Shown here piece by piece: positions 811 through 49,079 of a stretch of 64,000 bases of DNA. The notes beneath the pieces were generated by a model. It was not told the origin of the DNA. It did not search any database and was given only the letters and a program-made list of their open reading frames with translations. This DNA comes from Desulfovibrio sp. GTDB taxonomy: Bacteria; Desulfobacterota; Desulfovibrionia; Desulfovibrionales; Desulfovibrionaceae. Position numbers and translations under genes: made by a program. Position 1 is the first letter of the stretch, and each line of letters opens with the position of its first letter. Location: assembly GCA_031271265.1 (NCBI GenBank), contig JAISWB010000112.1, forward strand, positions 1 to 64,000. The letters run 5' to 3'.

Positions 811-1851
811 TCAGCCCTGCTGGAAAGAGGCGCGCAGGTGCTCCAGACGCGTTTTTGCGGCCTCCGGGTCCAGGCCGAGGGCATGCGCAACGGCTGCCAG
901 ATTTTCTTCGGCATCCGGGGGGCGAAAGTACCGGGGAACGATATCCTCCCGCGACCATTCCGCGCATGCCGCGGCGCGCAGCAGTGCTTCGGGCGCGGGA
1001 TTGTCGTAGGCCGGCGACAGCAGCAGGGCAGGCGCGTTGCGGTCTGTTTTGCCGGACGCTTCCGTGAGCGCGGCAAAGACCGCCGGATGGTTGCGGACGC
1101 CGCTACCCAGCAGTTCCGGGCGCGGTCCCCCTCGGCGTGCTTCCGCGCCTATTCGGGCCGCGGCCTCTTCCGGCGTCAGCAGGTGTATGTCGCCGTCCGG
1201 TGACGGTAGGCATACAGCGCCTTCCGGGGGGGCGGCACTAGGCGCAACGTCCCCGCCTGCGTCGAAGGCCTGCGCGTACAGTAATGTTTTCCGAGCGTGG
1301 ACGAGTACCCAAAGTCTACGCGCACAGGATATTTCGTTCCTATATTTCGGAGTACCCGTAGGACTCGGCGCGTCCCGGTGTCCGTGCACATGGGAAGACC
1401 CGCCTGCGGGAACGGCGGAAACTCCTGCTGTCGCGCATATCCCGTCCTCGTCCTGTTCCTCGGCCGGTATGCCGCGCAATACCGCGCCGGCGGCGAGCAG
1501 GGGCAGGTATTCAAGGCCGGCCGTGAGCGTGCCCGCCGCCCTTGCCAGACCGGCGGCTGTCGCCGCGGCCAGACGCAGGCCGGTAAAGCCTCCGGGGCCG
1601 CGGACGGCGGCCGTGCCCCGTAGCGATGCCGGAGCGATACCCGCTCGTGCCGACACTTCGAGAATGAGGGGGGCAAGCAGTTCCGCGCCGCGCGATTCGG
1701 CCCTGCGTTCGGAGTATGCCTCAAGATGCGGGACGCCCGCCGACATAGCGGCGATCGCGACCTGCAAAAGTCCTTCCGCAGTATTCAGGACAAGCAAAGG
1801 GTAGGGCGCATCGGCGTGTTTCAAACCACGTCTCCGCACGAGAGGCGACAT
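811..1851 (-). CDS. tsaB: tRNA threonylcarbamoyladenosine biosynthesis protein TsaB
   Basis: TsaB is the inactive ASKHA-fold partner of TsaD in making t6A37 of ANN-decoding tRNAs. The hallmark GPGGFTGLRLA lies at residues ~85-95, preceded by the LLVLNTAEG strand. At 346 residues it is much longer than usual (about 230). A hydrophilic stretch at ~131-178 (EEQDEDG to NEISCA) interrupts the fold just before the VLVHARKTLLYAQAF strand, and the C-terminal part is also extended. The ATG at 1849-1851 overlaps the end of a CRISPR repeat, and codons 1-11 are read from that repeat; an AGGGAG eight bases upstream lies in the adjoining spacer. A TTG at codon 19 is an alternative start nearer the conserved domain. 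It follows rseP on the same strand. Confidence 0.85.
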   Translation of the reverse strand: MSPLVRRRGLKHADAPYPLLVLNTAEGLLQVAIAAMSAGVPHLEAYSERRAESRGAELLAPLILEVSARAGIAPASLRGTAAVRGPGGFTGLRLAAATAAGLARAAGTLTAGLEYLPLLAAGAVLRGIPAEEQDEDGICATAGVSAVPAGGSSHVHGHRDAPSPTGTPKYRNEISCARRLWVLVHARKTLLYAQAFDAGGDVAPSAAPPEGAVCLPSPDGDIHLLTPEEAAARIGAEARRGGPRPELLGSGVRNHPAVFAALTEASGKTDRNAPALLLSPAYDNPAPEALLRAAACAEWSREDIVPRYFRPPDAEENLAAVAHALGLDPEAAKTRLEHLRASFQQG

Positions 1852-1979
1852 TGACTACTCTCCCTATTGCTTCCACGGCCACGTTTCAATCCACGTCTCC
1901 GCGCGGAGGCGACAGACCATGCGCAGGATGAAACGGGTGAAGCGGTCGTTTCAATCCACGCCTCCGCGCGGGAGGCGAC
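1818..1979 (-). CRISPR. Three-repeat CRISPR remnant (type I-C-like repeats), no cas genes
   Basis: Three copies of a 31-32 bp repeat occur at 1818-1849, 1883-1913 and 1948-1979, separated by unique spacers of 33 bp (1850-1882) and 34 bp (1914-1947). On the plus strand each begins GTTTCAA(T/A)CCACG and ends GGCGAC with a GC-rich palindrome between, the pattern of type I-C repeats whose crRNA-sense form ends in GTGGATTGAAAC. On the minus strand the copies decay in order: the one nearest rseP is most canonical, the middle lacks a base, and the one inside tsaB has several changes, as expected at a trailer end. Only 22 bp separate the canonical repeat from the rseP stop codon, so no leader fits. 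No cas genes are in the window. Confidence 0.8.
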
Positions 1980-2001: not shown

Positions 2002-3081
2002 TCAGCGCGTGAGGTCGTTGAAGGTGGCCGCTCCCACAAGGGCGATAAGCAGCGCAAGTCCGGCAAGCACAGCCTTTTCGCGAATATGTTCGGGCACTTT
2101 GCGGCGCGTCGCCATTTCGGCTGACAGGAACAACAGGTGACCGCCGTCCAGCACGGGTATGGGAAGAAGATTCAAAATGCCGAGGTTCACGCTGATAAGC
2201 GCGGCCAGCATCAACACGTCGGCGGCGCCGCGATCCGCCTGCTTGTATATGGCTTGGGCGATCAGTATGGGTCCGCCCACGTTGTCGAAGGCTACCCGGC
2301 GCGACACAATGTCCACAAGGGCGTTCCAGGTGTAGGCCGCCATGTTGCCGGCTTCCGTCAGACCTCCCGGCAGGGATTGCAGAAAGGAAAGTTCCTCGTG
2401 CTCCGTCTCGCCGGCCGCGCGGATGCCCAGACCGAGCCGCCGCGCGGCGCCCTTGCCGTCCGTTTCAGCGGCAGGCAAGGGGCGGGGAGCCAGGGAAAAC
2501 ACTACCGAACTGCCGTCCGGACGTTGCGCCGTCACAACGACATCACGTCCGTCGGTCTGCCGGACAAGAGGCGCGATGTCCAGCCAGCGGCGCACGGCCG
2601 TGCCGTCGATGCTCATGATGCGGTCTCCGACCCGCAAAGGAGAGGATGCGGCCGCTCCGCCCTCAATAATCCCGCCGACTACCGGAGGCACGAAATTGCG
2701 GCCGTTGACGTATAAAATTCCCCAGCAGATCAGCCAGGCCAACACCAGGTTGAACAACGGTCCGGCCGCGATGACCATGAAACGCTCCCGCGCCGGGCGC
2801 AGGGCAAAACTCTCCTTCTCGCTGAACCCTTCCGGAATCTCGGCAGAATCCGTTTCGCCGACCAGGGAAACAAAACCGCCGAGGGGAAGCGCAGCCAGTT
2901 GCCATATCGTCTTGCCGCGCGCAAAGGAAAAGAGCACCGGACCGAAGCCCAGAGAAAAGGTTTTGACCCCGATGCCCATAGCTCTTGCCGCGATGAAATG
3001 CCCCAGTTCGTGAAACATGATAAGCCCGCCGAACACCAGGACAACGGCCGCTACGCCGGCTATTCCCATGCCTTCCGCCAT
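2002..3081 (-). CDS. rseP: RIP metalloprotease RseP (site-2 protease)
   Basis: RseP cleaves anti-sigma factors and signal-peptide remnants inside the inner membrane. With the start at 3081 the protein has 359 residues: the first membrane helix carries the zinc motif HELGH at ~24-28, a single PDZ domain follows at ~115-200, and the third zinc-ligand motif NLLPIPVLDGGH is near 304-315, followed by a last hydrophobic helix. The 3081 ATG is preferred over an upstream one at 3153 because AGGGGA sits seven to eight bases before it and the protein then begins directly at the first membrane helix. One PDZ domain, not two as in E. coli, is common in other bacteria. tsaB follows on the same strand across the CRISPR remnant. 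Confidence 0.9.
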   Translation of the reverse strand: MAEGMGIAGVAAVVLVFGGLIMFHELGHFIAARAMGIGVKTFSLGFGPVLFSFARGKTIWQLAALPLGGFVSLVGETDSAEIPEGFSEKESFALRPARERFMVIAAGPLFNLVLAWLICWGILYVNGRNFVPPVVGGIIEGGAAASSPLRVGDRIMSIDGTAVRRWLDIAPLVRQTDGRDVVVTAQRPDGSSVVFSLAPRPLPAAETDGKGAARRLGLGIRAAGETEHEELSFLQSLPGGLTEAGNMAAYTWNALVDIVSRRVAFDNVGGPILIAQAIYKQADRGAADVLMLAALISVNLGILNLLPIPVLDGGHLLFLSAEMATRRKVPEHIREKAVLAGLALLIALVGAATFNDLTR

Positions 3082-3298
3082 AATTTGATCCCCTGCATGC
3101 GTCGGCGGCCCGCGGGCCGCCGGCATAACGCGCCGCGCGCGGCGCATTGACAAAGTGTTGCGCCGTCATTATTGCATAGGAAAATACCGTATGCAACCGC
3201 AGGAACCCCCGCGGATACAACCGGGGTCGTACTCCCCGCAACGCCGAGGCCGCTTCGGGTCACATCCGGACGCGACTTTGCCTATTTCGGAGCACAGC

Positions 3299-42831: not shown

Positions 42832-42882
42832 CAATGTTTCACTCCACATCAGGCTCCATCCGCCGGGGCGTAGTCACCCGGC

Positions 42883-42985
42883 GGATAGGAACCCGGTGGA
42901 TTCCCCTCCCTGAAGGGTTGACCGAACACATGAATTCCATGGGCGTACGGATAGGAACCGGGCGGGTTCCCCTCCCTGAAGGGAG
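42883..42985. repeat. Two direct repeats, 66 bp apart, between the cyclase gene and ackA
   Basis: GGATAGGAACCCGGTGGATT at 42883 and GGATAGGAACCGGGCGGGTT at 42949 are each followed by CCCCTCCCTGAAGGG. The second copy runs into the left inverted-repeat arm of ackA. A small frame across them encodes a peptide with repeated IGT-x4-PLPEG blocks; it has no other sign of being a gene. Confidence 0.65.
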
Positions 42986-43020
42986 CGGTTTCAAACCATA
43001 AAGGGATTTCTGATGAAAAT
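42972..43020 (+). repeat. Left arm of the inverted repeat flanking ackA
   Basis: It reads CTCCCTGAAGGGAG (a perfect small hairpin), GGTTTCAAACC (a second palindrome), then ATAAAGGGATTTCTGATGAA. It matches the ackA leader at 44245-44294 in inverted orientation over about 49 bp with only a handful of differences. Here the AAGGGA ribosome site and ATG are orphaned: the frame they open runs antisense into ackA. Confidence 0.8.
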
Positions 43021-48046: not shown

Positions 48047-48978
48047 TGATCAAGCCGCCTTTCCGGTGCGGCAGGGTCGCCCTCATGGGGCCGCCCAACG
48101 CCGGCAAGTCCACCTTGCTGAACAAGTATGCGGGCAGGAAGCTGTCCATTGTGTCGCCTCTGCCCCAGACCACGCGCAACCGCATCACGGGCATTCTTTC
48201 CGACAATGACGCCCAGGTGATTTTCATCGACACTCCCGGCATTCACCAGCAGCGCGGCGTAACGCACAGCCGCATGCTGCGCGCGGCCTGGGACGCCCTG
48301 GACGGCGCGGACGCGCTGGGCGTGATCTTGGACGCCGACCTGTACGCCCGCAAGGCGGAATTTCTCGAAAACGATCTGGCGCCGCTGCGCGCGCCGATCG
48401 CCGCCGAAACGCGGCCCGTTTTTGTGATTGCCAACAAGGTCGACCTGCTCGGCGACAAGTCCCGTCTCCTGCCGCTTCTGGAGCGCCTGCACGAACTGTG
48501 GCCGGACGCCGGCCTGTTTCCGGTTTCCGCCGCGGACGGCGAAGGGCTGCCCGGACTTCTGGCGGCGATCAAACGCGCCTTGCCCGAAGGTCCGCCCTGT
48601 TTTCCGGAAGATGTTTTCTCCACCGCCCCTCTGCGCTTCATGGCCGCGGAAATCGTGCGCGAAAAGCTCTTTCTCACGCTCAGGCAGGAACTGCCCTATT
48701 TCACGACCGTGGACATTGAAGCCTGGGAAGAAGACGACGAGCGCAACGCGGTGGAAATCCACGCGGTGATCCATGTTGCCAAGAATACGCACAAGGCCAT
48801 GGTCATCGGTCGCGCCGGACGCAACATCAAGCAGGCAGGACAGGCCGCGCGCCTGGAAATTGAGCAGCTTTTGGGCCGAAAAACACACCTGCGGTTGTGG
48901 GTAAAGGTGCGGGCCGGCCGGGCGGACGAAGCGGAGTTTCTGCGCAGTTTCGGGCTTGTGCCCGAAGCGGAGTTGTGA
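48043..48978 (+). CDS. era: GTPase Era
   Basis: Era binds the 3' end of 16S rRNA in small-subunit maturation. The 311-residue protein has G1 GPPNAGKSTLLNKY, G2-region LPQTTRNRITGI, G3 IDTPGIHQ, G4 IANKVD and the C-terminal KH domain (VIGRAGRNIKQAGQAARLEI). It starts at the first of two ATGs, overlapping the preceding stop (ATGA), with GGGAGA upstream. Its last codons are part of a 70-bp duplication with the yggS start. Confidence 0.94.
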   Translation: MMIKPPFRCGRVALMGPPNAGKSTLLNKYAGRKLSIVSPLPQTTRNRITGILSDNDAQVIFIDTPGIHQQRGVTHSRMLRAAWDALDGADALGVILDADLYARKAEFLENDLAPLRAPIAAETRPVFVIANKVDLLGDKSRLLPLLERLHELWPDAGLFPVSAADGEGLPGLLAAIKRALPEGPPCFPEDVFSTAPLRFMAAEIVREKLFLTLRQELPYFTTVDIEAWEEDDERNAVEIHAVIHVAKNTHKAMVIGRAGRNIKQAGQAARLEIEQLLGRKTHLRLWVKVRAGRADEAEFLRSFGLVPEAEL

Positions 48979-49079
48979 CGTGTCGGAGCCGGCGGATCGC
49001 TTCGACATGAAAAGCATTGGACTAAACCCTGTCAGGCAGGGGTTGTGACGTGTCGGAACTGACTGATCGCTTCGATGCC
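48971..49079 (+). repeat. Tandem duplication of the yggS start region
   Basis: GTTGTGACGTGTCGGA followed by TCGCTTCGA occurs at 48972 and again 70 bp later at 49042. The second copy holds the true yggS GTG at 49050. The first overlaps the era stop codon and opens a 22-codon frame whose first residues mimic the YggS N-terminus (SEPADRFD versus SELTDRFD) and which stops immediately before the real gene. Confidence 0.75.

Follow-up and report, generated by a model that had tools for sequence, protein, structure and literature searches.

The product of Cas1-Cas2 is a spacer-sized insert accompanied by a repeat-length target duplication. When Cas1-Cas2 is overexpressed, integration also takes place outside arrays (cited in PMC11788318; see also PMC9456107), and non-canonical spacer integration and new CRISPR loci have been reported by Nivala et al. 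2018, as cited in PMC9456107 and PMC11788318. Few or single repeats without cas genes occur in viral mini-CRISPR arrays (PMC6858448) and in phage solitary repeat units (Racr, PMC10651486), which are carried by mobile elements and affect CRISPR immunity. Moreover, a short palindromic repeat in frame in a housekeeping protein is known from the Rickettsia palindromic elements (RPEs; PMC10969869), elements of ~150 bp inside genes.

Here we describe a small CRISPR array in the window, i.e., the whole stretch of 64,000 nucleotides that was analysed, where CRISPR-derived DNA has apparently been recruited as a translation start, judging from the sequence alone. The array shares the identical 32-nt repeat, the periodicity and unique spacers (33-35 bp) with type I-C arrays such as that of Desulfovibrionaceae MGBC000161 (CAJTFO010000006.1), yet it has three repeats only, no leader and no cas neighbours, lies within a housekeeping operon and overlaps a gene start. 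Like the RPEs it would place a palindromic repeat in frame in a housekeeping protein, with the difference that a CRISPR repeat array would here also supply the start. In contrast to viral mini-arrays and Racr, loci of this type are chromosomal, located in operons and beside start codons, and, unlike the products of non-canonical integration, the window array consists of canonical repeats without a clear duplication of its target. A core tRNA-modification gene would thereby have obtained its expression signal, and probably its N-terminus as well, from DNA of immune memory. There is at least one parallel, rfbG in the related genome G003, and similar stray CRISPR pieces precede other genes in the genus.

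A three-repeat CRISPR array between rseP and tsaB

Two housekeeping genes on the minus strand, both assigned by curated models, flank the array: rseP upstream (2002-3153, stop at 2002-2004; RseP, TIGR00054, 6e-71), whose product has an intact C-terminus as in relatives, and tsaB downstream (open reading frame 811-1851, 346 aa from the ATG at 1851; TsaB, TIGR03725, 1e-24). At 1818-1979, read in minus-strand sense, the gap holds three type I-C-type CRISPR repeats with spacers of 34 and 33 bp, starting with the rseP-proximal repeat R3 (1948-1979, 32 nt), which is the exact consensus GTCGCCTCCCGCGCGGAGGCGTGGATTGAAAC, and continuing with spacer 1 (1914-1947, 34 bp), R2 (1883-1913, 31 nt, one base less than the consensus), spacer 2 (1850-1882, 33 bp) and the tsaB-proximal R1 (1818-1849, 32 nt, four edits from the consensus, GTCGCCTCTCGTGCGGAGACGTGGTTTGAAAC). 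R1 and R2 are degenerate, the 3' handle of the repeat is intact in two of the three copies, the periodicity is 65 bp and both spacers are unique; no such repeat set arose in 100 shuffles of the sequence. A leader is lacking at the array, and the 22 bp to rseP (1980-2001) leave too little room for one. The sequence-only reading had described this geometry, with two housekeeping genes on one strand and neither leader nor cas genes at the array, and the coordinates, the two family models and the genome-wide distribution of cas genes given below all agree with it.

The exact consensus repeat is present in long, cas-linked type I-C arrays (CAJTFO010000006.1 and JACRDI010000036.1), one of which is preceded, by reading, by an apparent cas2 end and a leader. 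Within the assembly of the window genome (G000; 116 contigs, 95% complete) no long array with this repeat was found, only mini-arrays. Cas1 occurs in G000 only on contig C98, and Cas5d was found neither in this 95%-complete assembly nor in the relative G002; type I-C cas genes are present in G001 and G003. On C98 (L092 620-11998) cas1 lies in a type III-A csm-like cluster, after which comes a Cas9-like ORF that continues past the end of the stretch, the types being assigned by reading the sequences and not by a model. The active I-C array of G003 was considered as the direct source of the window array and rejected, its repeat stem being different (GTCGCTCCTCACGCAGGAGC...).

Searches for the origin of the spacers returned nothing convincing in phages, in IMG/VR (one 20-mer only) or in the available DNA of the genus. 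The two spacers were searched singly and plasmids lay outside the search; phage matches were weak only (E 0.3-0.4), with none convincing for spacer 2 and no origin for spacer 1 in the sequences searched.

Insertion at the junction and candidate starts of tsaB

In the related genome G013, 18 bp separate the rseP stop from a TTG that serves as tsaB start, with M S A P A P F L V L N as the N-terminus, and in G002 the rseP stop and the tsaB ATG overlap as TGATG, the N-terminus being M S A P Y P L L I I N; no repeat is present at either junction, the N-termini having been read from the DNA. The 22-bp left flank of the window array can be aligned with the rseP-tsaB gap of G013 as far as roughly the ancestral start codon, and on the right the match picks up again among the first tsaB codons. 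The predicted TsaB starts to resemble its relatives at residue 13, encoded by the first full codon past the repeat, and no start codon has survived at the ancestral position on the right flank. This comparison identifies the array as an insertion that this lineage received between rseP and tsaB, and it answers the objection that the repeat bases might be ordinary tsaB coding sequence in relatives, which they are not. A target duplication at the array was not significant, with 32 of 126 unrelated flank pairs scoring as high in flank alignments. The junction of G002 itself (L016 1412-1513) carries a perfect duplication of 34-35 bp around a unique insert of 32-33 bp, a layout referred to below as D-X-D.

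The first possible start of tsaB is the ATG at 1849-1851, at the junction of spacer and repeat, which takes its AT from spacer 2 and its G from R1. Spacer 2 also holds the Shine-Dalgarno sequence AGGGAG and an in-frame TAG; TAG TCA stands directly before the ATG, placing the stop two codons upstream; from the ATG the tsaB frame is open through R1, translation of R1 not being shown. The duplex of this site with the anti-Shine-Dalgarno sequence is predicted at -9.5 kcal/mol, to be compared with a 5% quantile of -8.0 kcal/mol for random 20-mers of the window and -4.3 kcal/mol for the ancestral tsaB start of G013. A TTG at 1822-1824, codon 10 within R1, is in frame with the repeat's GGAG 7 nt upstream (-7.9 kcal/mol). 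Two further options have little duplex energy, the GTG at 1839 (+0.5 kcal/mol) and the TTG at 1795-1797, codon 19 (+0.3 kcal/mol), which lacks a Shine-Dalgarno sequence and at which the TsaB profile begins. The consensus repeat itself has the form GGAGG-N6-TTG-AAAC, i.e., a ribosome site and a start codon with a frame open to the repeat end.

With the ancestral start missing and an in-frame stop just upstream, tsaB has almost no choice but to start in the inserted DNA, the TTG at 1797 excepted, and the translation start of tsaB very probably now lies in inserted CRISPR DNA, for which no expression data exist. Within the insert we infer that the ATG at 1851 is the most likely start, and the TTG at 1824 is possibly used and a serious second candidate, also in inserted DNA. 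The earlier proposal that a CRISPR fragment provides the initiation sequence of tsaB thus gains support from the comparison, and its placement of the ATG across the spacer/repeat junction and of AGGGAG in the spacer was correct. Given a start at 1851, R1 corresponds to codons 2-11, and codon 1 receives only its G from the repeat.

A dispersed family of mini-arrays

The window array is one member of a dispersed mini-array family. Copies of the repeat in G000 form mini-arrays of one to three repeats on contigs C87 (the window array), C46, C52, C82 and C108, and a partial copy stands at the end of C68, which begins in the repeat. Besides tsaB, the genes downstream of the G000 mini-arrays are mnmG, rfbG, pgk and a glycosyltransferase (C82), and in relatives mini-arrays precede rfbG and glmM in G003, pgk and lolD in G002 and the same glycosyltransferase in G001, these names resting on reading of the translations and not on family searches. 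The downstream gene was readable at seven distinct loci, and at every one of them the repeat is in the sense of that gene. The term "CRISPR remnant" used by the sequence-only reading therefore stands with respect to the identity of the repeat, not with respect to a lone remnant; likewise, the repeat does recur elsewhere in the genome as expected, in mini-arrays and not in a full type I-C array, long ones being found in other bacteria.

The closest parallel to tsaB is rfbG in G003. The rfbG site is empty in G001 and G002, where the gene has a GTG start. G000 carries repeat, spacer and repeat there with an ATG 2 nt later, and G003 carries two repeats around a different spacer, with the ancestral GTG changed to GTT; the nearest start left in G003 is the in-frame TTG of the repeat (anti-Shine-Dalgarno duplex -9.5). 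Any target duplication at the rfbG mini-array is ~12 bp or less. At glmM in G003 an ATG follows the repeat directly. The glycosyltransferase locus on C82 has a single repeat inside a direct duplication of 37-39 bp, and the sequence is single-copy in G002.

Two further single matches were observed. A degenerate repeat match (33.5 bits) lies within a 500-aa ORF of G002, RNA methyltransferase-like by reading (C105, L120 4990-5021), and in G012 a single repeat stands upstream of a cas5d gene (C42, L121 4126-4157), possibly an autoregulatory mini-array.

Alternative explanations of the locus

As a whole, we consider the best explanation to be that a three-repeat mini-array entered the DNA between rseP and tsaB and that the original start codon of tsaB was thereby replaced or cut off from the gene, so that translation would now begin within the array, most likely at the ATG at 1851 with the AGGGAG of the spacer or possibly at the TTG at 1824 with the GGAG of the repeat (probability about 0.72). 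The insertion, the lost ancestral start, the in-frame stop and the sense-oriented mini-array family belong to what the comparison of genomes establishes. The main competitor on the start site is that tsaB begins at the TTG at 1797 and that the array is an untranslated operon insert without a coding role. This start cannot be excluded, and the TIGR03725 alignment does begin at residue 19 with profile position 1, and a TTG start is also inferred for tsaB of G013; against it, the TTG at 1797 has no Shine-Dalgarno sequence, the starts of relatives (MSAPYP-, MSAPAP-) lie ~6 residues upstream of its position, and residues 13-18, between R1 and this TTG, are conserved with relatives. We therefore regard it as the less likely start, and the reading built on it as unlikely.

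It is also conceivable that the mini-array functions chiefly as a live CRISPR locus or an RNA-processing site, yielding crRNAs or a Cas endoribonuclease cut in the rseP-tsaB transcript, and overlaps the start only incidentally. The 3' handles retained in two of three repeats, the type I-C cas genes of G001 and G003, and the different spacers of G000 and G003 at their common rfbG site, which agree with spacer uptake once the array was in place, would fit such a role, but with Cas5d absent from G000 and G002, two degenerate repeats, no leader and spacers without convincing targets we consider it improbable. The element is dispersed, intergenic and has a palindromic core, as would an ordinary REP-like palindrome that merely resembles CRISPR; this candidate was rejected on the identity of the repeat with those of cas-linked I-C arrays and, given also the 65-67-bp periodicity and the unique spacers of 31-35 bp, is hardly tenable.

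Spacer-sized inserts between duplications

Many loci in G000 have the D-X-D layout, with a duplication of 26-45 bp around a unique insert of ~33 bp. In a strict scan of ~630 kb of G000 stretches, CRISPR repeats left out, 12 D-X-D had an X of 27-38 bp, two a shorter X and none an X of 40-69 bp (binomial p ~2e-9 against uniform gap lengths). The length signal is weaker in G003, where 426 kb contained two non-CRISPR D-X-D with an X of 27-38 bp and four with an X of 20-22 or 40-42 bp. No D-X-D was found in 249 kb of G005, a genome in which no Cas1 was found and the only control genome, where the G000 rate would predict 4.7 (P 0.009); the dependence of D-X-D on Cas1-Cas2 is a correlation only.

One scar lies in the window itself, on the plus strand at 48972-49075 at an era-like/yggS junction, where a 34-bp duplication spanning the stop and the GTG start surrounds a 36-bp unique insert; the site is empty in G002 and G013 and occupied in G001. 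That scars are common to several species argues against assembly artefacts. Further scars in G000 were noted at L227 1185-1272, L196 9374-9474, L214 4422-4510, L221 11007-11105 and L124 3278-3390; three of these five have perfect duplications, and one is located 9 nt upstream of glmS, a site that is empty in G002. At both yggS and glmS the orthologous sites thus confirm that an insertion took place.

As would be expected of non-canonical integration (Nivala et al. 2018), a spacer-sized insert stands between two target copies, and in this respect D-X-D scars look like ectopic Cas1-Cas2 spacer integrations, a cause that we infer. They differ from that work in that they occur naturally and in large number, frequently lie at gene junctions and are common to species, and the agency of Cas1-Cas2 is not shown. 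The scars suggest that ectopic spacer integration, an effect seen in experiments, has a part in shaping natural genomes as well.

Origin of the mini-arrays

The mini-array family may have arisen by ectopic Cas1-Cas2 integration, an inference that we put forward tentatively and at slightly less than even odds, because G000 has many scars whose insert measures ~33 bp and a single-repeat locus lies inside a 39-bp duplication. Solitary repeats seeded in this way would then grow by ordinary spacer acquisition, which we infer with moderate confidence and which would explain the differing spacers at the common rfbG site. For the multi-repeat loci (window array, rfbG) an insertion of the integrase type has not been demonstrated, and the link is weaker for the window array, where no significant duplication exists. 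A real rival remains in which the mini-arrays are recombined fragments of an older array, without Cas1-Cas2, and D-X-D results separately from repair, i.e., fill-in of staggered breaks with captured filler. It accommodates the multi-repeat inserts without repeat-length target duplications, and contig C68, beginning in a repeat, leaves room for a longer unassembled array; on the other hand, the single-repeat C82 locus has its 39-bp duplication opposite an empty site, and repair filler does not predict a clustering of inserts at 27-38 bp. We regard this origin as possible without favouring it.

The repeat as a ready-made GGAGG-N6-TTG module would explain why sense copies have survived at gene starts. 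Extended to the whole genus and joined with ectopic integration, this would mean that Cas1-Cas2 repeatedly integrates spacers and repeat units outside arrays and that the I-C repeat acts as a portable start module, sense copies of which persist at stop/start junctions, gain spacers and become the place where translation of housekeeping genes is initiated (tsaB in the window genome, rfbG in G003), a generalization that for now is conjecture and that we do not hold to be probable.

A second dispersed element

Additionally, a dispersed element of ~150 bp is present in ~20 copies in G003 and also in G000 and others, with one copy in the window at 42836-42990 and further ones in L126-L145; three loci with this element gave no match in Rfam. 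It ends in GTCGGCGGATGGAGTCGGCCGTGGATTGAAAC, which resembles the I-C repeat (GTGGATTGAAAC) and has the 5' GTCG and the 3' 12 nt in common with I-C repeats. At pgk (G000) and glmM (G003) the mini-array follows the end of such an element at spacer distance (31 and 34 nt, respectively), as if the element end were positioned as the first repeat of the mini-array.
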